From Manis javanica (taxonomy: Eukaryota; Chordata; Mammalia; Pholidota; Manidae), in the NCBI RefSeq assembly GCF_040802235.1, contig NC_133169.1, forward strand, positions 41,919,034-41,983,033: DNA of 64,000 nt. Direction: 5' to 3'. Shown here piece after piece: positions 14,883-59,468 of the stretch. Both the position numbers and the translations under genes were made by a program. Each line of letters starts with the position of its first letter. Position 1 is the first letter of the stretch. Under the pieces are notes generated by a model, which saw only the letters and a list, made by a program, of their open reading frames with translations, ran no database searches and was not told where the DNA came from.

Positions 14883-14926
<44 letters not shown>

Positions 14927-23250: not shown

Positions 23251-23559
23251 TTTATAAGTCTCCAGAGAATTGGCCTCTCTTACCCCAAAATGGGAAGGTC
23301 CACATCCAGTTATTCTCTGCACCCCCTCGGCCACCAAGCTCTTACTGCCTGATAACTCTGTCACCCCTTGGATTCATATCTCCAGGTTGAAAACAAATAC
23401 CCAGGACCCACCTTCTCTGGACATCCAAGACCCATCAGTCACAATCCAGAGTCCTTCGGATACAGCCCAAGATGCTGTCTACTCTACCACGCCTCATCCC
23501 TCTGGTCCCTTGAAACTCCGCATCTCCCATTCACCCCCTTTGCCATCCATACCTGAATC

Positions 23560-25125
23560 ATGACTTTTTCCTCCTTTACTAGTCTCTCGCTTTTTTTCCT
23601 CATTCCTATTGTCTTCCCCACCACCCCAGCCTCCTTTGTATGGCGATTCAAAGTCAGACAGACTTACACACAGCATCAAACAAAAGTTACTGCCCTCATT
23701 GCCACATCAGACTGCCCTCTGAAAGGTTGCTCTGAGCCTTTATACCTCCACTTTCCTCCCTCCACCAAAGTGTCACTAGCAGTTACCTTTATTCTCCCTA
23801 CCTCTGCTTCCTCTATGACCAAAGACAAGCCTATTGCAGGCGATGGCAAGACACCTATGGGGGATGTCCCTACTGGTCTTGCGCCATTCACTACATGGGT
23901 AACTCTCGGTACCCACAGTATTACTCCTCCAACCATTTCATGAAATATCCCAACAGCTCATTCTCCTTATCAATCCCAGATCCCTGGGACTCTCGATGGG
24001 CCACCAGAGTCACAGCCTCAGTTTACTATGGGGGATCCTTGACCCCCGATGGTACCCTTCATATCTCTCGAGAGTATGTTCCCTCTCACTCCGAGATCTC
24101 TCAAGTTGCATCAGATATCGGACATTCCAAAAAAATCATTATCTAAACCCTTCATGGCACCTCTTCATCTTCTTATTCCTCCTACTCTTGGTTACAGCTT
24201 ATTCAAGACACCACCATCTTTCTCAACCACACCCTCAACACTACCAGTTGTTTCTTGTGCGCATCACCACAGCACTCACTGCTGGCCGCCGTGCCCTATA
24301 AAATTTCCAACTACTCCTTCCATGCAGAAGGACAACTCCTCTGCCCCCTGGCAGACATACCCCTATGAGAACCAGAATACGCAGATAATCTCACCATCCA
24401 CCACTGTGTAGGCCCAACTCCACCCCCTTCCAGCGCACTTCACTGCCTCTCTATCTACACCCCTACATCCAACTCTAAAACTTTCATGCAACCGGGACAC
24501 TTCTTTTGGTGTAATGGCAGTCTTTTCAACTCACTGCCTCCCAATTCTGATATACCGTGCATTCCCATCACCCTAATCCCACAGCTTACACTTTACAGCA
24601 TGGCAGAATTTCTTGAGCTCCAACCTCCCTTGCCCTCACGCACAAAAATGGTTGCTTTCCTTCCCATCATGGTCCGTATCTCTTTGACCACCTCAACCAT
24701 TGGGGCAGGGTTTTTGGGAGGAGCCTTGGGTCACTCTCTATGGGCAATTAGAGATCTCAACACCAAACTTGAGGGAGCCCTGACATCCACTGCCGATTCC
24801 CTAGTTTCTCTCCAAAGACAGGTCACTAGCTAAGGTCACCCTTCAAAACCAGCAGGCCTTAGATCTGCTTACAGCCAAAAGGGCGGCACCTGCATCTTCC
24901 TTTGAGAGGAGTACTGCTATTACATCAATGAATCCAGCATTGTAGAAACTGACATTACCAAACTCACCGACCTTGCCTCCAGCCTCCACTCTGCTTCCAA
25001 CCCATTCTCTTCAATACTAACAAACCCCCTCCTTACCTGGCTCTGGCCCATTGCAGGCCCCATAATAATCATTCTTCTCGCCTGTCTCTTCTTACCCTGT
25101 ATAATAAAGTTCATCAAATCCCAAG
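23560..25125 (+). pseudogene. ERV-F-like env, multiply broken
   Basis: Envelope glycoprotein. The ATG at 23560 opens a hydrophobic signal peptide (SLSLFFLIPIVF), followed by a surface-subunit frame to 23943. The remainder is spread over several frames. The transmembrane subunit is recognisable from its fusion-peptide-like region (about 24690-24740, Gly/Ala/Leu-rich), the LQNQQALDLL immunosuppressive-type segment (about 24843-24872), a disulfide block with a stop inside and one Cys of the CX6CC replaced by Tyr, and a Leu/Ile-rich membrane span at about 25036-25110. This places it with gammaretroviral Envs and apart from the class II Env at the start of the window. Confidence 0.75.
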
Positions 25126-25532
25126 TTGGAAAAATCTCTAATCAAACTTTCAACCAGCTTTTACTCAGGAACTATCAGCTTCTGGCTACAGAAGATCCCT
25201 CACCCTCATGTAACCTCCTCACCACATGCTGAGATGGACCCCTCTCTCCGCTGGAAACTGTTCCTGGAAACAATAGCCACAGACCCCTGGCTTCTGGCAC
25301 CCGTATCCTCTTGGCACCATTGGAATCAACAAGTACTTGACCTATTGTTACACGGAACCTTCTTTGATTTCCAACCTGAATAAGTCCACATCTACTTATC
25401 CTTACTGTGGGGAGTCCTATTAACCTTTTCCTCCCAGTCATCAAGCCCTCACTCCCTTCTCTGCTCCCATTCAGAAGGAAGCAGTCAGAGAGAAAGCAAC
25501 ATCCACAACCCCATAGAGGAGAAAGGGGGGGA
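25126..25532 (+). other. ERV-F-like env tail and polypurine tract
   Basis: The degraded cytoplasmic-tail region and 3' non-coding sequence end in a purine tract (agaaaggggggga, about 25519-25532) just before the LTR TG. Confidence 0.65.
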
Positions 25533-25781
25533 TGAAGGGCCCCCACCAGTAAGATGGTGAACTTCTGGCTTCTCTTCCAGGTTCTCGGTTCCCGAGGGCG
25601 CCACCTGAAGACCAATCACCTCTCTCCCCCCTCCCACTCCCAGCACCTAGCCAATAGCCACCAGCCCCGTAGAAGTAACACCACAATCACCCCATGCCCC
25701 TTCCTATATAACCCAGCACCTTTCCCTAATAAAGCGGATTTCTCTGGTGAATTGCTGCTGTGTGTCACTCCTTTCCTTTCA
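25533..25781 (+). repeat. 3' LTR of the ERV-F-like provirus
   Basis: Starts TGAAGGGCCCCC and ends CCTTTCCTTTCA (249 bp). It has two CCAAT elements (ccaatcacc near 25612 and gccaatagcc near 25650), a TATA box (tatataa near 25705) and an AATAAA near 25727. It is a compact class I LTR. Confidence 0.8.
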
Positions 25782-28088: not shown

Positions 28089-28346
28089 CTGTCACCAGAG
28101 GTAGAAAAACCATGGTAGAGAGGGTGGAGCAGCTGATTACAAGGCAAATGCAAAGTTAAATTGACTATCCCCAAAGTGAATCAAGGGATAGACAAAAAAG
28201 TACAGAATTTGATAACTAATATATAAAGAATGAAGGAGGAAGAAAAAGGAGGAGAAATAGAAAATAACCTTTAGATTGTGTTTGCAACAGCATACTAAGT
28301 GAGTTAAGTTAGTCTCTTAGATAGTAAGGAAAGTAACCTTGATCCT

Positions 28347-31300
28347 TTGGTAACCATGAATCGAAAGCCTGAAACGGCAATAAGTACATACCTATTGATA
28401 ACCACCCTAAATGTAAATGGACTGAATGCACCAACCAAAAGACATAGATTCATGGAATGGATAAGAAAACAAGACCCATATACATGCTGCTTACAAGAGA
28501 CTCACCTCAAACCCAAAGACATGCACAGACTAAATGTCAAGGGTTGGAAAAATATATTTCATGCAAACAATAGGGAGAAAAAAGGAGGTGTTGCAGTACT
28601 AGTATCAGACAAAATAGACTTAAAAACAAAGAAAGTAGCAAGAAATAAAGAAGGACATTACATAATGATAAAGGGCTCAGTCCATCAAGAGGATATAACC
28701 ATTATAAATATATATGCAACCAAAACAGGAGCAAGAGCATATGTGAAACAAATACTAACAGAACTAAAGAAGGAAATAGACTGCAATGCATTCATTTTAG
28801 GAGACTTCAACACACCATTCACTCCAAAGGACAAATCCACCAGACAGAAAATAAGTAAGGACACAGAGGCACTGAACAACACACTAGAACAGATGGACCT
28901 AGTAGACATCTATAGAACTCTACATCCAAAAGCAACAGGATACACATTCTTCTCAAGTGCACATGGAACATTCTCCAGAATAGACCACATACTAGGCCAT
29001 AAAAAGAGCCTCAGTAAATTCCAAAAGATTGAAATCCTACCAACCAACTTTTCAGACCACAAAGGTATAAAACTGGAAATAAATTGTACAAAGTAAGTAA
29101 AAAGGCTCACAAACACATGGAGGGTTCACAACAAGCTTCTCAATCATCAATGGATCAATGACCAAATTAAAATGGAGATCCAGCAATATATGGAAATAAA
29201 TGACAACAACAACACAAAGCCCCAACTTCTTTGTGATGCAGTGAAAGTAGTCTTATAAGAGGAAAGCATATAGCTATCCAGGCATATTTAAAGAAGGAAG
29301 AACAAACCCAAATGAATAGTCTAACGTCACAATTATCAAAACTGGAAAAAGAAGAACAAATGAGGTCTATAGTCAGCAGAAGGAGGGACATAATAAAGAT
29401 CAGAGAAGAAACAAACAAAACTGAGAAGAACAAAACAATAGAAAAAAATCAATGAAACCAAGATATGGTTCTTTGAGAAAATAACAGAATATATAAGCCT
29501 CTACAAGACTTATGAAGAGAAAAAGGGAATCAACACACATCAACAGAATCAGAAATGAGAAAGGATATATCACTATGGACCCAACAGAAATACAAAGAAT
29601 TATTAGAGACTACTATGAAAATCTATATGCTAAGAAGCTGGAAAACCTAGAAGAAATGGACAACTTCCTAGAAAAATACAACCTCCCAAGACTGACCCAG
29701 AAAGAAACAGAAAATCTAAAGAGACCAATTACTACCAATAAATTGAAGCAGTAATCAAAAAACTACCAAAGAACAAAACCCCCAGGCAAGATGGACTCAC
29801 CTCGGAATTTTATCAGACATACAGGGAAGACATAATACCCATTCTCCTAAAAGTTTTCAAAAAAATAGAAGAGGAGGGGATACTTCCAAACTCATTCTAT
29901 GAAGCCAACATCACCCTAATACCAAAACCAGGCAAAGACCCCATCAAAAAAGAAAACTACAGACCAATATCCCTGATGAAAGTAGATGCAAAAATACTCA
30001 ATAAAATATTTGGAAACCAAATTCAAAAATATATCAAAAGGATCATACACCACGACCAAGTGGTATTCATCCCAGGGATGCAAGGATGGTACAACATTCG
30101 AAAATGCATCATCATCCACCACATCAACAAAAAGAAAGACAAACACTGCATGATAATCTCCATAGATGCTGAAAAAGCATTTGACAACATTCAGCATCCA
30201 TTCATAATAAAAACTCTCAGCAAAATGGGTATAGAGGGCAAGTACCTCAACATAATAAAGGCCATATATGGTAAACCCACAGCCAACATCATACTGAACA
30301 GCGAGAAGTTGAAAGCTTTTCCTCTGAGATCAGGAACAAGACAGGGATGCCCACTCTCCCCACTGTTATTTAACATAGTACTGGAGGTTCTAGCCACTGC
30401 AAATAGACAAAACAAAGAAATAAAATGAATCCACATTGGTAAAGAAGAAGTTAAACTGTCACTATTTGCAGATGACATGATATTGTACATAAAAAACCAT
30501 AAAGACTCCTCTCCGAAACTACTAGAACTGATATCAGAATAGAGCAAAGTTGCAGGATACAAAATTAACACACAGAAATCTGTGGCTTTCCTATACACTA
30601 ACAATGAGCAAACAGAAAGAGAAATCAGGAAAACAATTCCATTCACAGTTGCATCAAAAAGAATAAAATATCTAGGAACAAACCTAACCAAAGGAGTGAA
30701 AGACCTATACCCTGAAAACTACATGACACTCTAAAGAGAAATTAAAGAGGACACTAAGAAATGGAAACTCATCCCATGCTCCTGGCTAGGAAGAATTAAT
30801 ATCATCAAAATGGCCGTCATGCCCAAAGCAATATACAGATTTGATGCAATCCTTATCAAATTACCAACAACATTCTTCAACGAACTTGAACAAATAGTTC
30901 AAAAATTCATAGGGCAACACTAAAGACACTGAAAAGCCAAAGCAAGCCTGCGAAAGAAGAACAAAGTGGGGGGGATCTCACTCCCCAACTTCAAGCTCTA
31001 CTATAAAGCCATAGTAATCAAGACAATTTGGTACTGGCACAAGAACAAAGTCACAGACCAGTGGAACAGATTAGAGACTCCAGGCATTAAACCAAACATA
31101 TATGGTCAAATAATATTCGATAAAGGAGCCATGGACATGCAATGGGGAAATGACAGCCTCTTCAACAGATGGTGCTGGAAAAACTGGGCAGCTACATGTG
31201 AGAGAATGAAATTGGACCATTTTCTAACCCCATACACAAAAGTAAATTCAAAATGGATCAAAGACCTGAACGTAAATCATGAAACCATAAAACTCTTAGT

Positions 31301-32145
31301 AAAAAACATAGGCAAAAATCTCTTGGACATAAACATTAGTGACTTCTTCATGGACATATCTCCCCAGGCAAGAAAAACAAAAGCAAAAATGAACAAGTGG
31401 GACTATATAAAACTGTAAAGCTTCTGTACATCAAAGTACACCATCAATAGAACAAAAAGGTACCCTACAGTATGGGAGAATATATTCATAAATGACAGAT
31501 CTGATAAAGGCTCGACGTCCAAAATATATAAAGACCTCATGCACCTCAACAAACAAAAAGGAAGTAATCCAATTAAAAAATGGGCAGAGTAACTGAACAG
31601 TTCTCCAAAAAAGAAATTCATATGGCCAACAGACACATGAAAAGATGCTCCACATCACTAGTTATCAGAGAAATGCAAATTAAAATCACAATGAGATATT
31701 ACCTCACACCAGTAAAGATGGCTACCATCAAAAAGACAAACAGCAACAAATGTTGGCAAGGTTGTGGAGAAAGGGGAACCCTCCTACACTGCTGGTGGGA
31801 ATGTAAATTTGTTCAACCATTGTGGAAAGCAATATGGAAGTTCCTCATAATGCTCCAAATAGACTTACCATTTGACCCAGGAATTCCACTCCTAGGAATT
31901 TACCCTAAGAATGCCGCACATCGTTTGAAAAAGACAGATGCACCCCTATGTTTATGGCAGCACTATTTACAATAGCCAAGAAATGGAAGCAACCTAAGTG
32001 TCCATCAATAGATGAGTGGATAATGAAGATGTGGTACATATACACAATGGAATATTATTCAGCCATAAGAAGAAAACAAATCCTACAATTTGGATGGAGT
32101 ATTTGCAACAACATGGATGGAGCTAGAGGGTATTATGCTCAGTGA
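28347..32145 (+). pseudogene. L1 ORF2 (endonuclease-reverse transcriptase), copy 1, broken
   Basis: ORF2p nicks target DNA and reverse transcribes L1 RNA. The endonuclease (28347-29096) keeps the catalytic blocks TLNVNGL, QETHLK, LGDFNTP, RIDHILG and SDHKGIKLE. The RT is split: 29976-30428 carries the fingers, and FADDMILY is present near 30466-30490 after a stop. The C-terminal cysteine segment [18 protein letters not shown] is at about 31751-31805. The ATG used by copy 2 (39681) is ACG here, so the original ORF2 start is lost. There are multiple stops and frameshifts between the blocks. Confidence 0.9.
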
Positions 32146-32575
32146 AATAAGCCAAGTGGAGAAAGACAAATACCAAATGATTTCACTCATCTGTGTAGTA
32201 TAAGAACAAAGGAAAAACTGAAGAAACAAAGCAGTAGCAGAGTCACAGACCCCAAGAATGGACTAACAGTTACCAAAGGGAAAGAGTCTGGGGAGAATGG
32301 GAGGTTAGCGAGGGGTAAGGGTGGGAAAGAAGAAAGGGGTATTATGGTTAGCATGTATAATGTGGGGGGGGACTTGTGGAGGGCTGTGCAATACAGAGAA
32401 GACAAGTATTGATTTTCCAACATCTTACTATGCCGATGAACAGTGACTGTAATGGTGTTTGTGGGTGGGGGGGACTTGGGGTAAGGGAGAGCCTAGTAAA
32501 CATAATGTTCTTCATGTAATTGTATATTAATGATAAAATTTTTTAAAAAGTAAAAATAAATAAAATAAAATAAAA

Positions 32576-33541: not shown

Positions 33542-34480
33542 TTATACTAATTTTCCTTTCCTTAATAGTTTCTGAAATCCCCTGGATACCTGTTTGTTGC
33601 AAAGGCTGTAGATGAGAGGGTTCAGCATGGGGGTGAGGATGGTGTAAAAGGCTGATACCATTTCATCTGGTCTGGCATATGAAGAGAGGCTGGCCTCATG
33701 TACATGAACATGGCTGCACCGCAGTAGAGTCCGACCACAGACAGGTGGGAGGAGCAGGTGGTGAAGGCTTTGCGGTGACTTTCCGCAAAGCCCATGTGGA
33801 TGACAGCTCGAAGGACTCTGGAATAGGAACCAATGATCACTGAGACTGGGATGATTAGCATCACCACAGAGCAGATGAAAAGCAGTGTTTCAAATGCAGA
33901 GGTATCTCTGCAAGATAGAGGTAAAAGAGCAGCTACATCACAGAAAAAGTGGTGTATTTCCAGAGAGCTGCAGAAGGAGAATGACAGAACGGCCACAGGC
34001 ACAATGATGCCATTAAGAGCGCCCAAGATACAGGAAGCAACAGTCATGAGGACACGGAGTTTCTGATTCATGAGGATGGTGTATCTAAAAGGGTATCATA
34101 TAGCCACATAGCGGTCGTAGGCCATGACAGCCAACAGGAAACATTTGGCTCCAAGCAGGAACACATAGAGGAATACCTGGGCTCCACAGCTAGCCAAAGA
34201 GATGGACTTCCTGCCTAACAAGTAGCTGAAGGCCTTCTTGGGGACAGTGGTGCAGGTGAGCATGAGGTCCATGAAGGACAGCTGGCTGAGGATGAAGTAT
34301 ATGGGGCTGTGGAGGTGTGTGTCCAGGTAGATGAAGAGAATCATGGTAGTGTTTCCCATGAAGGCCACTGAGAAGATGCCCAAGACCAGCAAGAAGAGGA
34401 AGATGTGGGTGGGGCTGTGATTGAAAATTCCCAGCAGAATGAAATCCAAGTTGAAGGTCTGGTCTTTACCCCATCCTGGA
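33542..34480 (-). pseudogene. Olfactory receptor pseudogene, family 2-like (OR2M/OR2T group)
   Basis: Minus-strand OR with the family 2 N-terminus (FNLDFILLGIFNHSPTHIF), a TM2 block HSPIYFILSQLSFMDLM, and the DRYVAI motif followed by a stop in place of the expected Cys (near 34099). Then comes MNQKLRVLM, the [13 protein letters not shown]6 block and a TM7 NPLIYSL block. TM7 is reached only by a one-base frame change near 33650-33660. The stop is at 33542-33544. The usual start ATG seems lost: the position before GKDQTF reads PGW. One nonsense codon plus one frameshift make it a pseudogene, but it is otherwise well preserved. Confidence 0.85.
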
Positions 34481-34559
34481 CAATTTGCATTATCTGTAAA
34501 TCCAGAGAATACACATAACTTATTTATTAATTTGATTTTCAAATGCATACCATGCCAAT

Positions 34560-37500
34560 GCCCTCATATGGGCACTGTACCTGCTGCATGCAAAAATCCT
34601 TCTCACAAAATGTCAATTACCTGCTGTCTTATTCACACTAAGTTTTATGACTTGGTCCAGTGATTTCCAGTCCTCACCCCAACTTCACCAACAAAAATTT
34701 CAGTATTTGACTTATTTTATTACAGAAAATAAAGTTTATATGTATATGAAGTCAGTATATAAGATGTATTATCACATCCTCAGGTAGAAAGTCAATAGAG
34801 AACTTAGGAGAAAATTAATTATAGATAACTGTTGCCAAATTTTATGACCATCTCTGATTACAGTAAATTTCCCAGTGAATTTATACCCTTTTGTCTAAAA
34901 TGTCTCCATCTGTGCTCTCTCCCATATCCATGGAACTCCTGTGTTCTAGAGTCTTCCTATGCTCTGCCCATATGCCTAGTGAAGGACCATATGGGATCAG
35001 TGTCAGCACGCTCATAAGGACACTTACACACCTTAACTTAATAGTGTGTATTTTAATTTTTCCATCTCAGACAAACCCTTGGAATTTTGTCTTAATTAAA
35101 CAAAATATCCATTAACACATTTTCCTAAAGAAGAAAAGGACATTCACTTCTATTTTGAGAATCACTTTGCTTCTCCCAACCTACATGAGGAAAGGAAATT
35201 TTATTTTCTCCTTCCTTTCTTTTTTTTTTTGGAAATTGATTTCATGTTTCTACAACAAAATGTAAGTTGAGTGGCCTCAGATCTAAGGGACAAAACAGAA
35301 CCCCTTGTATGCTCTTTAAAAGATTCACTGCAGTCTGCCCCTCGGGGGTGGAGTGGGCGTGCTCCACCCCAGGGAGTAGAGCCTTGCCTATAAGGAAGAC
35401 CCAGCTTGCTGCATCCCTCAGGATGCACCCAAAGGGAGCAAGGGAGGCTTTGCAAGAGGGAGCCTAAAGGTGTGAAGAATCAGATCATCAGAATCCAGCA
35501 GACCATTCCTCTATTTTGTTTTCAATAAATCAATAATTAAAGAAATATTTTCAACTTTAGAGAGAAGATGTGGAGTGATGTGAAATGACTTTCCACTGAA
35601 TACTTCTCCCGGTTCCTGAGGTTTGATGGGTCGGGTGGGTAGGTCTGAGGGCACTGACACCAGGGAGGTGATCGCAGTGCCCATGGGAGCCAAAGTCAGC
35701 GTGGATGGAGAGTACTGGCTGGAAACACCGACCATCAGCTCACCGTGAAAGCTATTCATATGATCAGTGCCCCCTCCCCTTTTAACCTGCCTCTAAAATA
35801 TCATACCTAGAGTCCCAAGTTAAATACACACCAAATAAAATTCAGTTCAGAGAAAGATCCAAATTTATGTTCTTGCCTTATATACATCACTGCCACCAAA
35901 ATTCTTCTGAACTTACAGACTCTAAATCTTGAAATAAAGTAATGTTCCTTTTCCCATTATTTTCTCATGATCTTATTTTTAATTAATTCTTCAAAAAATC
36001 TATGCTTTGGCACATGAGATCATGATTTTTTATATAAATTGTAGTGATAGCAATAATAATTAAAATTAAAAAATAATAATAGTGACTGGATATTACCTTC
36101 CATAATGAGTATCATTTTATTAAAAAAACTGTAAGCAAGTAATAGTTTTCAAATATGTTCTGAGAAAATTCATTAAATTGTCAAGAAATCCTATTATCTT
36201 TTTTTTGAAACTTCAGTTAGCAATGGAATGAATGGAGATACATCAAATTTTTCTATTTAGTATCCACAACATAGATGTGTTATCATGTGCATCAAACCAA
36301 AGAATATATACTTCCAAGGAAGAGCAGATCCCTGCGAACTGTTCTACTCAATATGCTATTTACGATGGGTAAATCATCTTGGAATCTGTGCTGCTTGATT
36401 TTCTCTAGGAAATATCCTGGTTATACACTGAACTGATATTCTCAAAGAATTTCTGTTAATTATAGTTAGTGGCAGAATGCTTCTCAAATTTAAACAATAG
36501 AAATCTATTTGCTTGTTATAGTGGCAGACAAAAATGGCATAGTTTTATGTATTTTACGGAATTAATATGTTGTGCCACTATCTCATGAGAAAATTTTCAT
36601 TCCCAGTTCTAATATTTGGGCACAGAAGAGTTCCTTAAAGAATGGCAAATGTCAAATACTGAAAACATTGAATAAGTTCTTTAGGTCACTAATTCATTTA
36701 TTTGTATGAATATTACATACTAGATACTTTCACCCATTTGAATGAATGTTGCAGAGAACCAATGTTTCCTGCAACAAAAAAATATCAAAACATTGATAAC
36801 TATTTAAATAGATAGCAGATACAGTCCTAATTCCAAGGCTGTCAGCAAAATGGATTACCAGCTTCTTTGTTCTGTTCATTTAAAAATGAGATCAATCACA
36901 ATTTCATATGAAATTGGAAAATTCTCACCTCCTAGCTAGAACATGTAGATGCCTCTTCCTTTGTGCCAATTGTTAATGGAGCATGGAGAAGATGATCCAG
37001 GGAGTTGAAAAAAGATACTTAAAAGAACAGAAGTTACTTAATGAGAGGAAAAACAACTATGTGGAAGAGTTATAGAGGTATGCAAGGTTACTAAGTGATG
37101 AAATAGAGCTTAAAATAGAAAGGGAAAGAAAAACTCTAAGTTTGAAGATATGAGGCTTATGATGATTAATAAATTGGGAATATTGATAGAAATGGGAGGA
37201 GAGGGAACAAAAGTCACAGACCTAGTGAAGTGACCTTGGTGAGCACAGACATCTGAGAGGAACCCAGCTGCACTGGTTCAGTTTTTAGACCTTGTGATGC
37301 AGACCAACCTGCCTATTTTTGTCCACACATTTCAGCACATTCACTATTTCCTGATTTTAGAATGCAATACTATGCAATTTAAATAAATAAAACTTTATTT
37401 TAATTATTCTTTTCTTTACTTTTATTGCACTGATTCTGATAATTATATTAATTGGTCTTTTTCATGAACTACTTGGAGCAAATATATTTTTTAACCCAAT

Positions 37501-37770: not shown

Positions 37771-38629
37771 GAGAGGCGAAGCCAAGATAGCGGCATGAGT
37801 AGAGCAGTGGAAATCTCCTCCCAAAACCACATATATTTATGAAAATATAATAAAGACAACTCTTCCTAGAATAGAGACCAGAGGACACAGGACAACATCC
37901 AGACCACATCAACACCTGTGAGAACCCAGCGCCTCACAAAGGGGGTAAGATAAAAGCACCGGCCTGGTGGGAAATGAGTGCCCCTCCCCCCAGCTCCCAG
38001 TGGGAGGAGAGAATTTGGAGCTGGGAGGGAGAGGGAGCACAGGACTGCTGAACACGCAGCCCCAGCCATCCGGACCAGAGCGTGGACACAGTGCATGCGT
38101 GGGGTCCTGGATACTAGGGAAACTGGGCAGTAAGGCCGGTGCCTGAGAACAAAGAAAAGCAGAGGCTTTTTTTTTTTTTTGAATTATTTATTTAATTTTG
38201 TTTTCTTTGTTTCTTTTTCTTTTTTTTTTTTTTTGGTGAGTGCTTTTTGGAAGTCTTAAAGGGACAGGGTGGGACACTTAGTCCAGAGGCAGGGAATCTG
38301 GAATCTCTGGGCACTCTAACCCCATGGCCCCTGGGCAGCAGGGAGCATGAAGGACCCTCATGGAGATAAATAGCCTCCCATCCATTACCCCTCCAAATGC
38401 AGCTCCACCATTTTGGAGTTGCAGCCCGAGGCAGGCCACACCAACAGCAACAGCGGAGATGCACTCCATAGCAGCTGGGCAGGAATCAGAAGTCCTGTCT
38501 GTGTGCAGCTGCCCAGCACAAGCCATTAAAGGTCACTGTTCTCCCAGGAGAGGAAGGCCACAAACCAACAAGAAGGAAAGTTCTTCTAGCCATCACTCGT
38601 GCCAGCTCTGCAAACTATTTCTATCACCA
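37771..38629 (+). promoter_or_regulatory. L1 copy 2 5' UTR (internal promoter region)
   Basis: Full-length-type L1 leader: starts with gaggcgaagccaagatagcgg and a GC-richer stretch, and is interrupted by T-rich tracts (38169-38180 and 38219-38235). Presence of the 5' end implies the copy was not 5'-truncated at insertion. Confidence 0.65.
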
Positions 38630-39485
38630 TGAAAAGGTGAAATTACAGGCAAACCAAGATCACAGAGACAACACCAGAGAAGGAGGCAGACCTAACCAGT
38701 CTTCCTGAAAAAGAATTCAAAATAAAAATCATAAACATGCTGACAGAGATGCAGAGAAATACACAAAAACTAAGGGATGAAGTCCGGAGGGAGATCACAG
38801 ATGCCAGGAAGGAGATTACAGAAGTGAAACAAACTCTGGAAGGATTTATAAGCAGAATGGATAAGATGCAAGAGGCCATTGATGGAATAGAAAGCCAGAG
38901 AACAGGCACGCATAGAAGCTGACATAGAGAGATATAAAAGGATCTCCAGGAAGGAAACAATATTAAGAAAACGTGTGACCAATTCAAAAGGAACAATATC
39001 TGTATTACAGGGGTACCAGAAGAAGAAGAGAGAGAAAAAGGGATAGAAAATGTCTTTGAAGAAATAATTGCTGAAAACTTCCCCAAACTGGGGGAGGAAA
39101 TAATCGAACAGACCACGGAAATACACAGAACCCCAACAGAAAGGATCCAAGGAGGACAACACCAAGACACATAATAATTAAAATGGCAAAAATCAAGGAC
39201 AAGGAAAGAGTTTTAAAGGCAGCTAGAGAGAAAAAGGTCACCTATAAAGGAAAACCCATCAGACTATCATCAGACTTCTCTAAAGAAACATTACAGGCCA
39301 GAAGAGAATGGCATGATATATTTAATGCAATGAAACAGAAGGGCCATGAACCAAGGATACTATATTCAGCACGATTATCATTTAAATATGATGGACGGAT
39401 TGAACAATTCACAGACAAGCAAATGCTGACGGAATTTGCCTCCCACAAACCACCTCTACAGGGCATCTTACAGGGACTGCTCTAG
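38630..39485 (+). pseudogene. L1 ORF1, copy 2, broken
   Basis: RNA-binding chaperone of the L1 particle. The ATG at 38630 is followed after three codons by TGA. The coiled-coil part (38737-38922) is open, rich in Arg/Glu and heptad-like. After another frameshift the C-terminal domain is open at 39183-39485, with RVLKAAREK, ARREWHDIFNAMK and LYSARLSF. Confidence 0.85.
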
Positions 39486-39680
39486 ATGGGAGCACTCCTA
39501 AAAAAAGCACAGAACAAAACACCCAACATAAGAAGAATAGAGGAGGAGGAATAAGAAGGGAGAGAAGAAAAGAATCTCCAGACAGTGTATATAATAGCAC
39601 AATAAGCCAGCTAAGAAAAGCAGTAAGATACTAAAGAGGCTAACCTTGAACCTTCGCTATCCACGAATTTAAGGCCTGCA

Positions 39681-42600
39681 ATGGCAATAAGTACATATCT
39701 TTCAATAGTCACCCTAAATGTAAATGGATTTAATGAACCAATTAGAAGACACAGAGTAATAGAATGGATAAAAAAGCAAGACCATCTATATGCTGCTTAC
39801 AAGAAACTCACCTCAAACCCAAAGACATGCACAGACTAAAAGTCAAGGGATGGAAAAACATATTTCAGGCAAACAACAGTGAGAAGAAAGCAGGGGTTGC
39901 GATACTAATATCAGACAAAATAGGATTCAAAACAAAGAAACTAACAAGAGATAAAGAAGGACACTACATAATGATAAAGGGCTCAGTCCAACAAGAGGAT
40001 ATAACCATTCTAAATATATATGCACCCAACACAGGAGCACCAGCATATGTGAAACAAATACTAACAGAACTAAAATAGGAAATAGAATGCAATGCATTCA
40101 TTTTAGGAGACTTCAACACACCACTCACCCCAAAGGATAGATCAACTGGGCAAAAAATAAGTAAGGACACAGAGGCACTGAACAACACACTAGAACAGAT
40201 GGACCTAATAGACATCTATAGAACTCTACATCCAAAAGCAACAGGATACACATTCTTCTCAAGTGGACATGGAACATTCTCCAGAATAGACCACATACTA
40301 GGTCACAAAAAGAGCCTCAGTAAATTCCAAAATATTGAAATTCTACTAAGCAACTTTTCAAACCACAAAAGTATAAAACTAGAAATAAATTATGCAAAGA
40401 AAACAGAAAGTCTCACAAAAACATGGAGGCTTAACAACATGCTCCTAAATAATCAATGGATGAATGAACAAATTAAAATAGAGATCAAGGAATATATGGA
40501 AACAAATGACAACAACACAAAGCCCCAACTTCAATAGGATGCAGCGAAAGCAGTCTTAACAGGAAAGTATATAGCGATCCAGGCATACTTGAAGAATGAA
40601 GAACAATCCCAAATAAATAGTCTAACATTACAATTATCAAAATTGGAAAAAGAAGAACAAATGGGTCCTAAAGTCAGCAGAAGGAGGGACATAATAAAGA
40701 TCAGAGAATAAATAAATAAAATTGAGAAGAATAAAACAATAGCAAAAATCAATGAAACCAAGAGCTGGTTCTTCCAGAAAATAAACAAAATAGATAAGCC
40801 TCTAGCCAGACTTATTAAGAGGAAAAGAGAATCAACACAAATCAACAGAATCAGAAATGAGAATGGAAAATCACGACAGACTCCACAGAAATACAAAGAA
40901 TTATTAAAGACTACTATGAAAACCTATATGCCAACAAGCTGGAAAACCTAGAGGAAATGGACAACTTCCTAGAAATATACAACCTTCCAAGACTGACCAA
41001 GGAAGAAACACAAAAGTTAAACAAACCAATTATGAGCAAAGTAATTGAAGCAGTAATCAAAAAACTACACAAGAACAAAACCCTCAGGCGGGACAGATTT
41101 ACCTCGGAATTTTATCAGACACACAGAGGGGACATAATACCTATTCTCCTTAAAGTTTTCCAAAAAATAGAAGAGGAGGGAATACTCCCAAACTCATTCT
41201 ATGAAGCCAACATCACCCTAATACCAAAACCAGGCAGAGACCCGACCAAAAAAGAAAATTACAGACCAATATCCCTGATGAATGCAGATGCAAAAACGCT
41301 CAATAAAATATTAGCAAAACTTATACAAAAATATATCAAAAGGATCATACACCATGACCAACTGGGATTCATCCCAGGGATGCACGGATGGTACAACATT
41401 CAAAAATCCATCAACATTATCCACCACATCAACAAAAAGAAAGACAAAAACCACATGATCATCTCCATAGATGCTGAAAAAGCATTGGACAAAATTCAAC
41501 ATCCATTCATGATAAAAACTCTCAGCAAAATGGGAATAGATGGCAAGAACCACAACATAATAAAGGCCGTATATGGTAAACCCACAGTCAAAATTATACT
41601 GAACAGCGAGAAGCTGAAAGCATTTCCTCTGAGATCTGGAACAAGACACAGATGCCCACTCTCCCCACAGTTATTTAACATAGTACTGGAGGTACTAGCC
41701 ATGGCAATCAGACAAAACAAAGAAATAAAAGGAATCCAGATTGGTAACGAAGAAGTTAAACTGTCACTATTTGCAGATAACATGATATTGTACATAAAAA
41801 ACACTAGAGACTCCACTCCAAAACTACTAGAACTGATATCGGAATATAGCAAAGATGCAGGATATAAACTTAACACACAGAAATCTGTGGCTTTCCTATA
41901 CACTAACAATAACCAAACAGAAAGTGAAATCAGGAGAACACCATTCATAATTGCATCAAAAAGAATAAAATACCTAGGAATAAACTTAACCAAAGAAGTG
42001 AAAGACCTATATGCTGAAAACTACAAGACACTCTTAAGAGAAACTACAGGGGACGCTAACAAATGGAAACTCATCCCATGCTTGTGGCTAGGAAGATTTA
42101 ATATCGTCAAAATGGCCATCATGCCCAAAGCAATATACAGATTTGATGCCATCCCTATCAAAATACTGGCAACACTTCAACAAACTGGAACAAATAATTC
42201 AAAAATTCATATGGAAACACCAAAGACCTCGAATAGCCAAAGCAATCCTGAGAAAGAAGAATAAAGTAGGGAGGATCTCACTCCCCAACTTCAAGCTCTA
42301 CTACAAAGCCATAGTAATTAAGACAATTTGGTACTGGCACAAAGAACAGAGCCACAGACCAATGGAACAGGTTAGAGATTCCAGTCATTAACCCAAACAT
42401 ATATGGTCAATTAATATTTGATAAAGGAGCCATGGACATACAATGGCAAAATGACAGTCTCTTCAACAGATTGTGCTGGCAAAACTGGACAGCTACATGT
42501 AGGAGAATGAAATTGGATAATTGTCTAACACCATATGCAAAAGTAAATTCAAAATGGATCAAAGACCTGAATGTAAGTCATGAAACCATATAACTCTCAG

Positions 42601-43496
42601 AAAAAAACATAGGCAAAAACCTCTTAGATATAAACATGTGTGACCTCTTCTTGAACATATCTCCCCAGGCAAGGAAACAACAGCAATAATGAACAAGTGA
42701 GACTATATTAAGCTGAAAAGCTTTTCTACAGCAAAAGTCACCATCAATAGAACAAAAAGGTACCCTACAGTATGGGAAAATATATTTGTAAATGATAGAT
42801 CCGATAAAGGCTTGATGTCCAAAATATAAAAAGAGCTCACCCATCTCAACAAACAAAAATCAAATAACCCAATTTAAAAAATGGGCAGAGGAACTGAACA
42901 AACAGTTCTCCAAGAAAGAAATACAGATGGCCAACAGACACATGAAAAGATGCTCCACATCACTAATTATCAGAGAAATGCAAATTAAAACCACAATGAG
43001 GTATCACCTCACACCAGGAAGTATGGCTGCCATCCAAAAGACAAACAACAACAAATGTTGGCGAGGTTGTGGAGAAAGGGTAACCCTCCTACACTGCTGG
43101 TGGGAATGTAAATTATTTCAACCATTTTGGAAATCAGTATGGAGGCTCCTCAAAATGCTCAAAATAGACTTGCCATTTGACCCAGGAATTCCACTCCTAG
43201 GAATTTACCCTAAGAATGCTGCACTGAAGTTTGAAAAAGACAGATGCACCCCTATGTTTATCGCAGCACTATTTACAATAGCCAAGAATTGGAAGCAACC
43301 TAAGTGTCCATCAGTAGATGAGTGGATAAAGAAGATGTGGTACATATACACAATGGAACATTATTCAGCCATAAGAAGAAAACAAATCCTACCATTTGCA
43401 ACAACATGGATGGAGCTAAAGGGTATTATGCTCAGTGAAATAAGCCAAGTGGAGAAAGAGAAATACCAAAAGATTTCGCTCATCTGTTTAGAATAA
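39681..43496 (+). pseudogene. L1 ORF2, copy 2, broken, catalytic Asp changed
   Basis: Endonuclease-RT. The start ATG at 39681 gives MAISTYLSIVTLNVNGF. A one-base loss near 39779 moves the endonuclease to the frame open at 39764-40078, then 40199-40537 (RIDHILG). The RT is open for 435 residues (40957-42264) with [18 protein letters not shown] and the polymerase box FADNMILY near 41773-41796: the second catalytic Asp is Asn. A frame break follows; the C-terminal segment with the Cys/His motif [18 protein letters not shown] (about 43054-43107) is open at 42927-43496. Stops, frameshifts and the FADN change make this copy inactive. Confidence 0.9.
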
Positions 43497-43833
43497 GAGC
43501 AAAGGAAAAACTGAAGGAACAAAACAGCAGCAGGATCACAGCACCCAACAATGGACTAACATGTACCAAAGGGAAAGGGACTGGGGAAGATGGGTGGGTA
43601 GGGAGAGATAAGGGGGGGAGAAGAAGAATGGGGGTGTTATGATTAGCATGCATAATGGGTGCGGGTGGGAGAAATAGGATTGCTGTACAACACAGAGAAA
43701 ACAAGTAGTGACTTTACAACATTTTGCTATGCTGATGGACAGTGACTGTAAAGGGCTTTGTGTGGGGGGGACCTGGTATAGGGTAGAGCCTAGTAAACAT
43801 AATATTCTTCATATAATTGTAGATTGATGATAG
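43497..43833 (+). repeat. L1 copy 2 3' UTR
   Basis: Contains the G-rich tract (ggggaagatgggtgggtaggg region and gggtgcgggtggg) and the conserved acagtgactgtaaaggg and ttcttcatataattgtagattgatga end shared with copies 1 and 3. Confidence 0.85.
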
Positions 43834-43852
43834 CAAAAAAAAGGAAACAAAA
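43834..43852 (+). repeat. A-rich linker at the L1/env-module junction
   Basis: An A-run with scattered g/c joins the L1 3' UTR to the module. It corresponds to the A/GAAA-rich tract at 61271-61306 (reverse strand) in copy 3. It looks like an ancestral L1 poly(A) tail now internal to the element. Confidence 0.7.
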
Positions 43853-44214
43853 GGGGGATTACTCCCTGATAGGATAAAACTAACTGTAAATCAAGCATGC
43901 TTTAAATATCCTTAATTTTGAACATTAAAGGGTGTCAGATGAGCAGCTATGGAAGTACATTTTTCTGATATATTCCTTTTTCTTAAAAAAAAAAAGCAGT
44001 TCCTTTGTGGTGATCTACAATAAGTTCTTCACAATGATATAAAGGGTATGTCAAAGTGTGGGCAAAGGGTTTGTTTTTGTTTATACAGAGGACCAAAGCC
44101 TAATTTGGCTACCGAGAAAACGAATTCAGATATGATAGGAAGAAGAACTTCCAACATCAACATTCTCTGGAAGAGTCATTCCAGAAGATGAACATCATAA
44201 CACTTCAACAAAGA

Positions 44215-44719
44215 TCCTGGCGCTGTTGCAGTTATAGCTGCATTCATCCCACCGGTTCCTGGACTTGCTATTGGAATGAAGAAGGAGATATCTAAGCTGG
44301 CCTGTGCGTACAGTAAAACAAAAAAAATTGACTGGATCTATACTGTCAGAACTAAACCAAGAATTAGCAGAAGTGCAAGTTGCAGCGCTCCAAAATCTTG
44401 CGACTATAGACTATCTACTGTTAAAAGAACATATGGGATGTGAACAGTTCTCAGGAATGTGTTGTTTTAATTTGTCTGATTTTTCTCAAACTATTCAAAT
44501 TCAGTTAGACAATATCCATCATATCATTGATAAGTTTTCACAAACGCTTTGAGTGCCTAACTGGTTTTCTTGGTTTCACTGGAGATGGCTGGTAATTGTA
44601 GGTCTGCTTTGGTTATGTAGCTGTATTCCTATTATGTTAATGTGTGTACGCAATTTAATTACTAGTTTAAAACCTATACATGCTTATGTTACTCTACAAG
44701 AAGATATATCAAAGAAATA
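44215..44719 (+). pseudogene. Gammaretrovirus-type env transmembrane-subunit fragment (copy A)
   Basis: A hydrophobic Ala/Val/Ile/Pro-rich fusion-peptide-like stretch at about 44217-44275 is followed, after a one-base frame change in the A-run at about 44322-44328, by the frame open at 44304-44552. That frame has a heptad-rich helix, the LQN...DYLL immunosuppressive-type segment and an intact CX6CC loop (CEQFSGMCC, 44439-44465). A TGA at 44550-44552 interrupts. In the same frame beyond it are a Trp-rich membrane-proximal part, a hydrophobic span (about 44589-44650) and a short tail ending at TAA 44717-44719. CX6CC defines it as gamma-type and unrelated to the class II Env at the start of the window. 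No surface subunit is present. Confidence 0.75.
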
Positions 44720-45327
44720 ATCAATCTTCCCATGTTATCTTCCATCTGCTACCTCTATAGCTTTTCTTCTTCCTTCCTAATTACAACCCTTAAGTAGAAT
44801 TCATGCCTCATAATGAAATTACCGAGTATCATAATTCTTCCAAGTGGTAAAGATATCTCAAGACAAATGCTGGGCATAAAAGCCACAGGGCATAAATCTG
44901 CAAAGAAGTAAAAAGCCAACCTTTTCAAACAATATTGCTTCTCTCTCACTTACCAACTTTACATTTCCCTGTATGGCCCCGGAAGGTGACTGGTTCGCAG
45001 AGACGGGTAAGATTCCTCAAGGGAGGAACAACCTAAGACAGGCACAGTCGCAGGGGGACCATCAGGTGAGAAATTGGGGATCAACAGAGGTGAGGCTTAG
45101 AACCGCCCCCGCCCCCGTTTTGAGAGAAATCTTCTGCATCCGTGGATGTTTTGTTGCCCTTGTCTAGCTTGGATTAATACTTAGTCTATAGGCACACACC
45201 TGATCATCTACATTTGCCCTCTTACTGCACTAAACTATGTTTTCTACCTTTATCTTGCATCTACCTACCACTTCAGCATTTTATTTAAAAAATAATAATA
45301 ATAATAACAATAATAATAAGGGAGAAA
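44720..45327 (+). other. Module 3' non-coding stretch with (AAT)n and purine tract
   Basis: Non-coding between the env fragment and LTR, ending with an AAT/AAC microsatellite (about 45290-45319) and a gggagaaa purine tract immediately before the LTR TG. Copy B has the same arrangement. Confidence 0.6.
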
Positions 45328-45642
45328 TGTGGGATTCACATATAAATCAAGTATAAAAATCAAACGAATATTCATATTTGACCTGATTGTTTATAGTTCA
45401 TAATGTGTGATCAAAACCAAAAGTTTCTGTGATGAATGCCCTTGTACTGTTCACCATGTAAGAACTTATTCACTATGTAAGAATTTGTTCACCATGTAAG
45501 AACTTGTTCATTATGCTTCAGAAGATAGTAGACTGTTGATAATTAGGCTTGGAGTTGATTAATGATTGTGCATTGAGTCCCCTATACAGAATTTTATTGT
45601 TTTTAACACCATTTGATCAATAAATATGAGAAATGCCCTCTC
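45328..45642 (+). repeat. LTR of the env module, ending at its poly(A) site (copy A)
   Basis: Starts TGTGGGATTC after the purine tract. It contains three 19-bp tandem units (45449-45467, 45468-45486, 45487-45505; gttcaccatgtaagaactt-like) and a partial fourth, and AATAAA at 45619-45624. The sequence stops 18 bases after AATAAA and continues as A8, so U5 is absent. That is the structure of a polyadenylated transcript end copied back into DNA. Confidence 0.75.
45449..45515 (+). repeat. 19-bp tandem repeat inside the module LTR
   Basis: Three full units, the first and third identical, and a partial fourth. Also present in copy B at about 59600-59665 on the minus strand. Confidence 0.8.
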
Positions 45643-45824
45643 AAAAAAAATTTACCTTTAAAAAAATGTTAATAAATAGCAAAGTCCAATGAATGATATG
45701 TATGCTGATATGTTTAACTGTGAAGTGTACTGATGTCCACTAAAAATAATAAATGGATGGACAGATGGATAAATATGCAAGAAAGTAAAATAGAGCAAAA
45801 TGTTAAGGGTTGAAAAATATATAT
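45643..45824 (+). other. Sequence between module A-run and downstream direct repeat (possible transduced flank)
   Basis: Follows the A8 of the module and ends with gaaaaatatatat before the 11-bp repeat at 45825. If that repeat is the true target-site duplication, this stretch was carried along by read-through transcription. No counterpart exists in copy B, where the T-run directly follows the module end. Confidence 0.35.
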
Positions 45825-46809: not shown

Positions 46810-48400
46810 TTAAATGGGTCCAAAGGTTTTATGAAAGGTCCTGGCAGCCCACATTCCAGGATATGTCCTTTGCATTGACCACTTTGGGACACGCCTGTGT
46901 GATTGGCCTCAACCTGCTGGTGGTGATGCTGATACCTGGGAAGGTCCGAGGCCCTTGCCGAGGCCTATGTGGCTCCTGGCAGACCCACAGACATTCCACG
47001 CCTGGATCCCGTGCTGTGGCTGGACTGGTCCTGGTGGTTCTTATTATGATTGCAGAAAAAACTCTCAGGGAACTCTTAAGAGCAAGACATGTCACTCATA
47101 CTACCTGAGGGTACCCTGGGCATCTGGGAGCCACACCAGGAGTTTGTTGTGAGAGAGAGAGAGGGGAAACTTGGGGCTTTGTCTTTATTAGGGTTCCGGG
47201 GTGGTCTTCCTACAGATTCCCTGGGTCACTCATTGTCGACTATAGAAACACGAGAGTGGGAATTAGGAATTAAGGTTTAGCGGACTGCAGGCTGGGTCAG
47301 TACGGCTACCAGTGTCTCACGATCCCCTCAGCTGTTAGATGGCTCCTGGACCCGGCTGGGGGTTGTACCCACTTGTGCTCACCTTGCTGGGAAACCCCCT
47401 TAGGAAACGGGCCATCACTGGGTCCTCAGGAATGTCACCCAAAATCACCAGAGATTTCTCCCTTTTCACCAACAGCTGCCCACAGGAGCCAAGAGCCTTT
47501 TCAGTTGCCTTGATTCTGTGACTTTGTCCCATTTGTGCTCAGAGTTCTTTCTATTGTTGTGTTTGCTCTCTTTCCCATTTAGAGGGAAACAGAGACATTT
47601 ACTCTTAATGGGATCTGCAAGTCTGACTTAACTCCAACCTCCCACCATGAACCCACCTCTCCTGTCTACACAGCCTGCAGGAGCAACATAGACTACGGCC
47701 AGAACCTTTTCCCCAGCACAGCAGTTTCTTGTTGCTGTTGTTCTCATGGCTGCCTAATAGGCAAATGGAGATGATCTTTCCCAGCAAATGTGGTGGTCTC
47801 TCCGGGTCTAGACTTTAACTCAGGCCTCCTCCTATTGTCCCTTGATGAGGTTCTCAGGTCTCCAGGAGGCTCGCCTAGCTGGAAACATCCCAGTATGCAT
47901 GTTGTTGAGTCTAGGCTCCCAGTTGAGAGCTGCCTCCCTCCTCTTCTTCCCTCACCCTGGCACCTGTGGCCACTGCCAAAACCTTGGCCAACAGAGACCC
48001 AGCAGGTATGGAGACCAAAGTTTCCTACAGGGCCTTTGCAGAAGATGGGGACTGAGTAGATTGTGAGGCAAGACTTCTGGAGGGGTGGGCTGTATTTCCA
48101 GAATCTTTTGCCTGTCCTTATTTCATCTCCATATCAGTAGTTGTTTCCAAGATGTAGAGAGAAATAGTCCGTCTCCATATCATTGATACCTGGTAATTAC
48201 CAGGGTCCAGGGCGAGTGAAGGTGTATCTAGACCAGAGAGGTTAGGTGGGTCCCCTTCTTCTACAGCTGGGTCATGAGAGACATGGGAGAGAAGTGGATC
48301 ACCTTTTGTAAGAAATAAATGGGTTTCACTCACTTTATTTCTCCATTTGTCTGATTTCAGTTTCAAAGCTATTTTGTCCTGGGATTTTCCCCTGTAGTTA
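46810..48400 (-). repeat. Possible degraded ERV in antisense: LTR-like end, leader, candidate gag start
   Basis: At 48190-48400 the minus strand is homologous (about 70% by eye) to the R/U5-like end of the LTR at 16782-17509, including a polyadenylation signal (plus-strand tttatt 48334-48339). Downstream on the minus strand, a short frame at 47532-47335 begins Met-Gly-Gln (a myristoylation-type start used by many Gags), but no capsid motif follows. The region is richer in G+C than its flanks. The ERV reading is tentative. Confidence 0.3.
47432..47579 (+). repeat. 148-bp direct repeat, copy 1
   Basis: Base-for-base identical to 49148-49295, with flanks unrelated on both sides. Confidence 0.95.
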
Positions 48401-49147: not shown

Positions 49148-49295
49148 ATGTCACCCAAAATCACCAGAGATTTCTCCCTTTTCACCAACAGCTGCCCACA
49201 GGAGCCAAGAGCCTTTTCAGTTGCCTTGATTCTGTGACTTTGTCCCATTTGTGCTCAGAGTTCTTTCTATTGTTGTGTTTGCTCTCTTTCCCATT
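49148..49295 (+). repeat. 148-bp direct repeat, copy 2
   Basis: Identical to 47432-47579; separated from it by 1,568 bp. Confidence 0.95.
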
Positions 49296-49299
49296 CAGC

Positions 49300-52767: not shown

Positions 52768-53740
52768 TTAACAGACGTCAAAGCATCGGGACCACCAGGG
52801 GGCTCCCTCTCCAGACGTGCCCCTCCCCAGCACCGTCCTGAACGCCCTGGCCACTTCCTTGTTGTGGAGGCTGTAGATGAGGAGATTCAGCATGGGGGTG
52901 AGGACGGTGTAGAAGAGAGATGCCATCTTATTCTGTGTGGGTGAGCGATCCGAAGTGGGCTGTATATATATGAACAAAGCTGTCCCATAGTACATTCCCA
53001 CCACCATGAGGTGGGAGGAGCAGGTGACGAGAGCCTTGCGGCGGCCCTCCCCAGATCCCATGCGAATGACGGCCAGGAAAACTCGAGCATAGAAAGCAAT
53101 AATGATGGCTACAGGGAAAACAATCATTAGGATGCAGCAGTAGACTAGAACTTCTTCAAATATTGATGTGTCGTACATGAGATGATTAGCAGGCAAGGGA
53201 AATCACAGAAGAAGTGGGCTATCTCCCGGATCCACACTAGAAGAAAGAAAATGTAGCTGCTGCATCAATTATACCATCTGTAGACCCCAGGATCCAGGAA
53301 GAGGCAGCCATCAGTCCACAAATTTTGGGGCTCATGAAAGTTGGGTATCTGAGAGGGTGGCAAATGGCAATAAAGCGGTCGTAAGCCATGACTGCCAATA
53401 GGAAGCATTTACAACTGAGGAGTGTGGTATAGAAGAAAATTTGTGTGGTACAACCTGCCACAGAGATGGACTTGCTGCCAGTCATGTAGTTAGAGGCCAT
53501 TTTGGGGAGGGTGGTGCAGATGAGCATGAGGTCCATGAGGGACAGCTGGCTGAGCAGGAAGTACATGGGGGTGTGGAGGTGTGTGTCCAGGTAGATGAGG
53601 AGAATCGTGGCAGTGTTTCCCACGAAGGCCACTGAGAAGATGCCCAGGACCAGCGAGAAGAGGAAGATGTGGGTGGGGCTGTAATCGAAGATGCCCAGCA
53701 GGATGCAGTTAGAGTTCAATGTCTGATTTTCCCATGCCAT
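52768..53740 (-). pseudogene. Olfactory receptor pseudogene, OR2M-like
   Basis: Minus-strand OR starting MAWENQTLNSN at 53740, with GIFDYSPTHIFLF, LHTPMYFLLSQLSLMDLM, MAYDRFIAICHPLRYP (DRF in place of DRY) and the TM4 block WILGSTDGIIDA. The frame breaks at 53237: a stop follows TFSFF, and at least two one-base changes in the extracellular loop 2 region (53180-53240) throw the frame. It is restored at 53196 as DTSIFEEVLVYCC, RKALVTCSSHLMVVGMYYG and TPMLNLLIYSLHNKEV (NPLIY has become NLLIY). The C-terminus runs on to 52768. The block sequence fits the OR2M group of the human 1q44 cluster. Confidence 0.88.
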
Positions 53741-53749
53741 AATGGGTAT

Positions 53750-54350
53750 GTTGTTTTTCTACTGCAACAAAAAGTCACACTTTCATTAATTTTGTGAACA
53801 CTTAATATTGTCGTAAAAAAGGTGATTCTATTAAAGTCAGGTTGAGAACAATACGGCACGACCAGGATTAGAAATCCCAAAGACCCAGAAGTACAGCATC
53901 AGAGAGAAGCGGGTTCTGCTGGTTCTGCCTCTCCAATAAAGCTTCAGAACTGCCCTCAGCTCCGCTTCTCAGCATCATTTTGTTTAATTGAAAAGCTAGC
54001 ATAATAATATACGTGCTTACATGATTGATAGTGTTTCTATGAAAAGGAAACTTCTCAAAAGCAATTAGACATTATTTTGAAATATCAGACATCTTTTGCA
54101 TATAAACTGATAGGAACATTCAGCCTGGATCAGCATGCGGCAGACACCACCACAGAAAATAAGCTGTGAGCCCTTGCTCGCATGACGCTGGGCACTTTTC
54201 CTAGCAGCATTAACAAACCTCTGCATCTGCCCATTATTTTACATTCTACAGTGTTTGGTTTGTAATTCACAGAAAATATTTTATGCAATAACTAGGTGAG
54301 CTGACAAATGATTCTTTAATTATATGAATATGTCTTTTATTCTGTAGCTT
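53750..54350. other. Gene-free sequence
   Basis: No gene or repeat recognised upstream of the OR2M-like pseudogene; its promoter cannot be identified by eye. Confidence 0.3.
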
Positions 54351-59444: not shown

Positions 59445-59468
59445 TTTTTTTTTTTTTTTTTTTTTTTT

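Follow-up and report, generated by a model that had tools for sequence, protein, structure and literature searches.

Two LINE-1 copies of Manis javanica share a retrovirus-derived 3' tail that was probably acquired by 3' transduction

Introduction

SINE-R derives from env and LTR sequences. SVA elements, in the account given in PMC7353768, join a hexamer region, an Alu-like region and a VNTR to an ERV-derived 3' part with a poly(A) end, and these non-autonomous elements are moved by the L1 machinery. LINE-1 (L1) elements can also carry sequence from beyond their own 3' ends to new loci, and a human family with 14 members is among the cases of 3' transduction described in PMC6425141. In mouse, a chimeric L1 (cL1) is known in which a partial L1 ORF2 is joined to a MaLR LTR (PMC6500023). 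The cL1 of that paper is a single engineered insert, and the part of the paper that deals with it describes no amplified lineage.

Here we analyze a stretch of 64,000 nucleotides of Manis javanica DNA (hereafter the window), in which two L1 copies end in the same ERV-derived module. As in the human families, an L1 and the flank presumably transduced with it are common to several loci. Unlike the flanks described for those families (PMC6425141), the piece is a retroviral 3' end that includes a CTE-like hairpin as well as the poly(A) signal of an LTR; the 8-16% that separates the two copies suggests that this lineage is older. Both units also have what characterizes SVA at its 3' side, an ERV-derived part that ends at the LTR poly(A) site and is followed by an A-tail. 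Whereas SVA is non-autonomous (PMC7353768), the ERV tail is here attached to an L1 with ORF1 and ORF2 domains. While 3' transduction itself is known, a variant of it with a SINE-R-like tail may be new. In a literature search of titles and the beginnings of abstracts, no L1 lineage with an ERV tail appeared among the matches listed; most subscription papers and bioRxiv were outside the scope of the search.

Results

As the original prediction for this DNA had claimed, two L1 copies in the window run through an A-rich linker into one 1.8-kb module, and both joins are present (Table 1). The first unit (copy 1) is on the plus strand. The second (copy 2), which had been placed at 59445-64000, does carry the module, and the prediction is to be corrected in that this unit lies on the minus strand; its L1 is cut by the edge of the window and has its 5' end beyond it. 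With the module of copy 1 (43854-45646) as the query and a threshold of E <= 1e-3, the window yielded one further match, the module of copy 2 (61270-59464, minus strand), and no stand-alone module. The two modules lie ~14 kb apart in inverted orientation and are 84.9% identical over 1831 columns, gaps included.

The boundaries of the module are the same in the two units. Following the A-rich linker, both modules start with GATTACTC, with five G and then ATTACTC in copy 1 (43853-43864) and four G and then ATTACTC in copy 2 (61270-61260). At the 3' side, both modules end in a run of A located 17-18 nt past AATAAA (at 45619 in copy 1 and 59491 in copy 2), and the common start base and common LTR poly(A) end that had been proposed were thus borne out. 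Each unit consists of an L1 3' end, an A-rich tract, non-L1 sequence and a second poly(A), and the sequence carried past the L1 is identical in kind at two loci with differing 3' flanks. The best similarity between these flanks was 18 bp (E 0.12), which is at the level of chance. The linker of copy 1 is probably the remnant of a first L1 A-tail. Target-site duplications, which had been proposed as a check on whole units, were sought at copy 1, where the best candidates were 9-10 bp long with 1 mismatch in AT-rich DNA and none was readable.

Table 1. Positions of the two chimeric units, their parts and the comparison L1 in the window
Feature	Position	Strand	Basis or remark
L1 of copy 1	37771-43831	+	starts near 37771
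L1 body of copy 1 (5' region plus ORF1 and ORF2, both decayed)	37771-43490	+	Pfam domains; 87.5% identity to L3 over 39501-43832
L1 3' UTR of copy 1	43491-43831	+	aligns with L3, copy 2 and the fragment at 14692
A-rich linker of copy 1, 21 bases	43832-43852	+	no AATAAA
ERV-derived module of copy 1, 1.79 kb	43853-45642	+	matches copy 2 alone elsewhere in the window (61270-59464, minus strand)
Possible integrase C-terminal remnant (tentative)	44043-44132	+	Pfam IN_DBD_C, E 0.12, 12.1 bits
env TM remnant in a broken frame, with fusion-peptide-like region, CX6CC and membrane span	44201-44720	+	
Long RNA hairpin with internal loops, CTE-like candidate	44964-45072	+	between env stop and PPT; predicted
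Polypurine tract (PPT)	45318-45327	+	read directly
U3-R of 3' LTR, no U5 seen	45328-45642	+	91.1% identity to copy 2
LTR polyadenylation signal AATAAA	45619-45624	+	sole AATAAA in 43491-45660
A-tail of copy 1, 8 A	45643-45650	+	read directly
L1 of copy 2 (ORF2 part and 3' UTR)	61307-64000	-	90.5% identity to copy 1 over 64000-61287, including linker
A-rich linker of copy 2	61271-61306	-	sequence and comparison with copy 1
ERV-derived module of copy 2	59469-61270	-	window-wide similarity search
CTE-like hairpin of copy 2 (predicted)	60036-60154	-	z -3.95; none of 200 shuffled sequences reached this stability
A-tail of copy 2, 24 A	59445-59468	-	read directly
L3 (matching part), ordinary tail, no module	28194-32535	+	comparison L1

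The L1 of copy 1 has Pfam matches, in decayed frames, to the L1 ORF1 domains (39075-39482), to the endonuclease (40079-40534) and to RVT_1 (40861-42261), while the piece at 42816-43493 had no Pfam match. A third L1 (L3) had been reported to end normally at 26.6-32.6 kb; it indeed has an ordinary A-rich tail and no module, and the same is true of an L1 3' fragment at 14692-14894. The module is found on two of the four recognized 3' ends of this L1 type in the window. In a fifth and older L1 fragment (8147-7927), the similarity ends where the 3' UTR starts.

The module had been described as an env/LTR tail, and it does contain TM and LTR sequences. That description was incomplete, as the module begins upstream of env with a tentative integrase end, also carries a CTE-like hairpin and apparently lacks SU. 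The integrase-like trace is a match of 30 residues to IN_DBD_C that falls below the 21-bit cutoff. Four other pieces in the same Pfam search, including the counterpart in copy 2, had no match, and a PDB search with the integrase-like piece of copy 2 returned unrelated chance matches only. We tentatively take the upstream part of the module to be a probable pol end. A piece of the TM remnant (44280-44549) matches the ASLV TM chains 4jpr (E 8.4e-13) and 5h9c (E 8.9e-13) in the PDB, and six pieces of the module searched against Pfam matched no retroviral family. The CX6CC motif is intact in copy 1 and spoiled in copy 2, in which the second Cys is replaced by Gly. An ASLV-like TM with CX6CC points to an alpha/beta-like (class II) ERV as the source of the module; by description only, this source resembles ERV-Alpha and ERV-Beta-Mpen of pangolins, which are likewise class II alpha/beta-like ERVs of a mammal (PMC12584738). 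Since fewer than 100 bases part the integrase-like trace from the TM trace in both copies, env SU is apparently absent from both if the assignment of the pol end is correct.

The TM stop at 44720 is followed by ~600 bases without env before the PPT is reached. U3 includes a 19-bp tandem repeat (45448-45510). There is a single U3-R in each unit, and an A-tail then takes the place of U5, as at the 3' end of an RNA. Paired complete LTRs are not present, and the LTR piece matches only copies 1 and 2 within the window. Across the window Rfam gave nothing at gathering scores, with two chance-level matches in the module, and a reverse-frame ORF spanning the junction had no homologue. Ten short repeat heads (nine SINE queries and MIR) had no match in the window either; this comparison is insensitive, as MIR should be present in any mammal.

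An AATAAA is located at the L1 end in neither of the two chimeras and in both of the two ordinary L1 tails, where it sits in simple A-rich repeats. In copy 2, a further AATAAA occurs close to the PPT (at 59819), and there is an ATTAAA close to the linker (at 61317). Because the linkers lack the AATAAA that ordinary L1 tails possess, formation of the 3' end of the chimeras probably depends on the LTR AATAAA.

The hairpin predicted between the env stop and the PPT had z-scores of -2.73 (44963-45080) and -1.51 (44960-45110) in copy 1, and of -3.98 for a longer stretch of copy 2 (60005-60157). The core by itself is close to chance, with z -1.02 for 87 nt of copy 1 and z -0.69 for 88 nt of copy 2, for which the MFE fold is a different one. 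The motif AAGACA, which is that of the MLV gamma-CTE that recruits NXF1 (PMC7551171), is unpaired in the predicted fold of both copies and lies in an internal loop in copy 1. An internal-loop hairpin between env and the PPT is also how the MPMV-type CTE is described (PMC7551171, PMC11379458); the likeness is one of description and predicted fold, and a role of the module hairpin in RNA export is putative. We also considered the hairpin alone as the most conserved part of the module and found no support for this: conservation of the 150 sites at 44937-45086 was unusual for the module as a whole (P 0.0025) and unexceptional within the post-env and LTR part (P 0.27).

Codon positions in ORF2 were counted only over two stretches in which a frame of copy 1 is open. 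Of 555 sites for each codon position, copies 1 and 2 differ there at 37 first, 33 second and 63 third positions, which gives 11.4% at third positions versus 6.3% at first and second positions (P 5e-4). The decay of an inserted copy is not biased by codon position. Changes unique to copy 2 are distributed unevenly over the three positions (17, 10 and 33; P 8e-4), and those unique to copy 1 (18, 20 and 21; P 0.78) or to L3 (21, 24 and 27; P 0.46) are not. The bias on the copy 2 branch implies that after the two lines split, ORF2 kept working through further rounds in at least the copy 2 line. The modules differ at 213 of 1763 ungapped sites, and this 12.1% is close to the divergence at third positions, as expected if the module travelled with the L1. 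These features fit a unit that was copied over several rounds.

In both ORF2 (7.9% versus 9.5 and 9.3% to L3) and the 3' UTR (15.7% versus 18.4 and 20.8% to L3), copies 1 and 2 are closer to each other than to L3, and the excess of L3-unique changes has P 0.005 and 0.04 in the two regions if rates are equal. In three of nine blocks of 300 bp (from 41140, 41740 and 43240) they are not the nearest pair. These nearest-pair distances give modest support to a single L1 lineage comprising copies 1 and 2. The post-env and LTR part of the module differs at 66 of 908 sites, which is below the ORF2 third positions (63/555, P 0.01) and below the L1 3' UTR (55/337 differ, P 5e-6), and this hints at constraint on that part.

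Outside the window, the TM piece has 38 related proteins that are 67-90% identical and come from contigs of 502-3481 bases; the 38 may include alleles or other species, and they may lie apart from any L1. The second Cys of CX6CC is Gly in 16 of these relatives, Cys in 14, another residue in 7 and a gap in 1. Spoiling of the TM seems not to have stopped such copies from multiplying, which is easier to reconcile with a passenger of another element than with an infecting virus. In a tree of copies 1 and 2 with 35 of the 38 relatives (three shorter than 60 aa were dropped), 4 of 34 inner branches are well supported and 18 are open. No relative of the TM piece was found among viral contigs, and the junction and LTR patterns had 0 matches there. 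The junction pattern had two matches among genome contigs, one of which (L001) looks like chance bacterial DNA.

A frame of 95 residues at 44880-45164 had two protein matches, one of them P0040. Residues 1-67 of P0040 are L1 ORF2 (79% identical to L3, and 72% to copy 2 over residues 1-74), and residues 68-103 are module sequence (94% identical to copy 2 and 86% to copy 1). On its single contig of 571 bases, the two parts of P0040 are arranged and oriented as in the chimeric units, with ~2 kb absent. The window copies have, by eye, at most ~1 base in common at the P0040 join, and P0040 could be an assembly chimera or error. Together, the 38 TM relatives and P0040 suggest a multicopy chimeric family. 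Extrapolated naively with a Poisson model, two units in 64 kb correspond to 8,300-280,000 copies per 2.2-2.5 Gb genome; we attach little importance to this range, since the presence of two units was the reason for selecting the finding.

Discussion

How did two L1 copies come to end in the same retroviral sequence? We favor, with a probability of about three in four, a chimeric L1-ERV element that arose through 3' transduction and was then amplified from a chimeric source. An active L1 would have landed, in the sense direction, in the 3' portion of a defective alpha/beta-like ERV, perhaps at the integrase end of pol and in an ERV that had already lost env SU. Transcription would then have passed the end of the L1 and halted at the AATAAA of the ERV 3' LTR, yielding an RNA of the form L1-A(n)-(IN end, TM, CTE-like hairpin, PPT, U3, R)-A(n). 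Such an RNA may have been retrotransposed by its own ORF1p and ORF2p, presumably in cis, and the resulting chimera may have become the source of further copies in a presumed multicopy family. That the chimera has been copied as one unit, as originally proposed, is supported in part: two loci with one junction and different 3' flanks speak for it, as do P0040 and the agreement between silent ORF2 divergence and module divergence, with the ORF2 codon signal confined to the copy 2 branch.

Template switching has been named as a source of L1 chimeras (PMC6500023) and could produce the same structure, a course of events that we consider improbable here. In this scenario an ERV-derived, non-autonomous RNA that was mobilized by L1 in the manner of SINE-R, and had its 5' end fixed at GGGGATTACTC, would have served as the template, from whose 5' end reverse transcriptase jumped onto L1 A-tails, independently and more than once. 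The join does sit at an L1 A-tail, the 3' UTR distance between copies 1 and 2 is not far under the distances to L3, and the blocks in which the two copies are not the nearest pair would be explained. However, two independent jumps are required, the window contains no stand-alone module, and the direct joining of ORF2 to module sequence in P0040 is what a deletion inside an existing chimera would be expected to leave.

A local inverted or segmental duplication, by which one chimera gave rise to both units, would agree with the proximity and inverted orientation of the modules and had been named beforehand as an outcome that would speak against a mobile chimera; it is highly unlikely, as a segmental duplication is contradicted by the unrelated 3' flanks, the 8-16% divergence comes with a codon-position bias, and P0040 and the 38 TM relatives point to more copies. 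Equally unlikely is that each L1 tail acquired a neighboring ERV fragment, or an old and decayed provirus, through a separate integration of the retroviral sequence: ERVs and L1s do often occur side by side, and one pangolin gamma ERV described in PMC12584738 has an L1 between env and the 3' LTR, but the same start base, the single U3-R and the A-tail of both units are unlike retroviral integration, neither paired LTRs nor short retroviral target-site duplications were seen at copies 1 and 2, and an A-tail in the place of U5 speaks against integration of the module by a retroviral route.

Beyond amplification of an L1-ERV chimera by 3' transduction, it is conceivable, if rather doubtful, that an autonomous L1 lineage permanently swapped its own 3' end for a retroviral RNA-processing cassette, made up of a CTE-like export hairpin and the LTR poly(A) signal, that selection has kept and that aided its spread to very many copies. 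In keeping with this idea, the post-env and LTR part changes less than the ORF2 third positions and the L1 3' UTR.

If the chimeric lineage is real, an autonomous retrotransposon would have taken over the 3'-end formation of a retrovirus, and perhaps its RNA export, in founding a lineage. It would represent a step towards composite elements, for which the known example is otherwise the non-autonomous SVA. L1 activity would then account for some ERV 3' fragments and for some solo LTRs that look truncated, and LTR counts and the dating of ERVs in this host would be affected.

The divergence between the two modules is uneven, reaching 25% at 44140-44389 and 5-6% at 44890-45389, and recombination between copies could be a cause. 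In the upstream part of the module there is also a patch of A/G differences. Over 44091-44300, sites with A in copy 1 and G in copy 2 outnumber the reverse 23 to 2 (P 2e-5), and over 44301-44720 the counts are 17 to 10 (P 0.25). The A is followed by G at 18 of the 40 such sites in 44091-44720, versus 22 of 166 for other A (P 3e-5), and a preceding G is scarcer (3/40 versus 38/166; P 0.03). Both ADAR and APOBEC3G have preferences for neighboring bases. From ~44260 on, where relatives give the polarity, the residue of copy 1 is the commoner one (for example K in 22, R in 1 and not covered in 15), so the change was probably from A to G in the copy 2 line, as RNA editing by ADAR produces. APOBEC3G acting in the opposite direction would also fit the 3' G preference.

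Variation among copies of the module

Between the modules of copy 1 and copy 2, the two L1-ERV chimeras, one segment has clustered A-to-G differences, with A in copy 1 and G in copy 2 at 23 positions and the reverse at 2. RNA editing in the copy 2 line is probably the source of this cluster. The U3 of each copy carries a 19-bp tandem repeat of about three units.

Two protein relatives of the module come from contigs outside the window. The frame of P0039 (726-bp contig) seems to depart from the copy 1 and copy 2 sequence upstream of the polypurine tract, and thus this further module copy may be interrupted or rearranged ahead of the tract. P0023, a relative of the env transmembrane remnant, resembles copy 2 at its start and copy 1 afterwards, and is possibly a recombinant or an assembly mosaic.

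Other features of the window

A decayed ERV distinct from the module has a Gag_p30 match over the cutoff and RVT_1 and integrase core matches marginally under it, with a strong C-over-G skew along its whole length. All three olfactory receptor pieces searched matched Pfam 7tm_4, and loci 2 and 3 are 71% alike. The direct duplicates (151 bp, 99% identity, 1.7 kb apart) have sharp ends and dissimilar flanks.

Coordinates of features in the window
Feature	Positions	Strand
Decayed ERV	18043-25600	+
Olfactory receptor gene or pseudogene 1	10166-10579	-
Olfactory receptor gene or pseudogene 2	33622-34563	-
Olfactory receptor gene or pseudogene 3	52768-53758	-
A-to-G segment, copy 1	44091-44300	+
A-to-G segment, copy 2	60803-61012	-
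U3 repeat, copy 1	45448-45510	+
U3 repeat, copy 2	59609-59670	-
Direct duplication	47432-47582, 49148-49298
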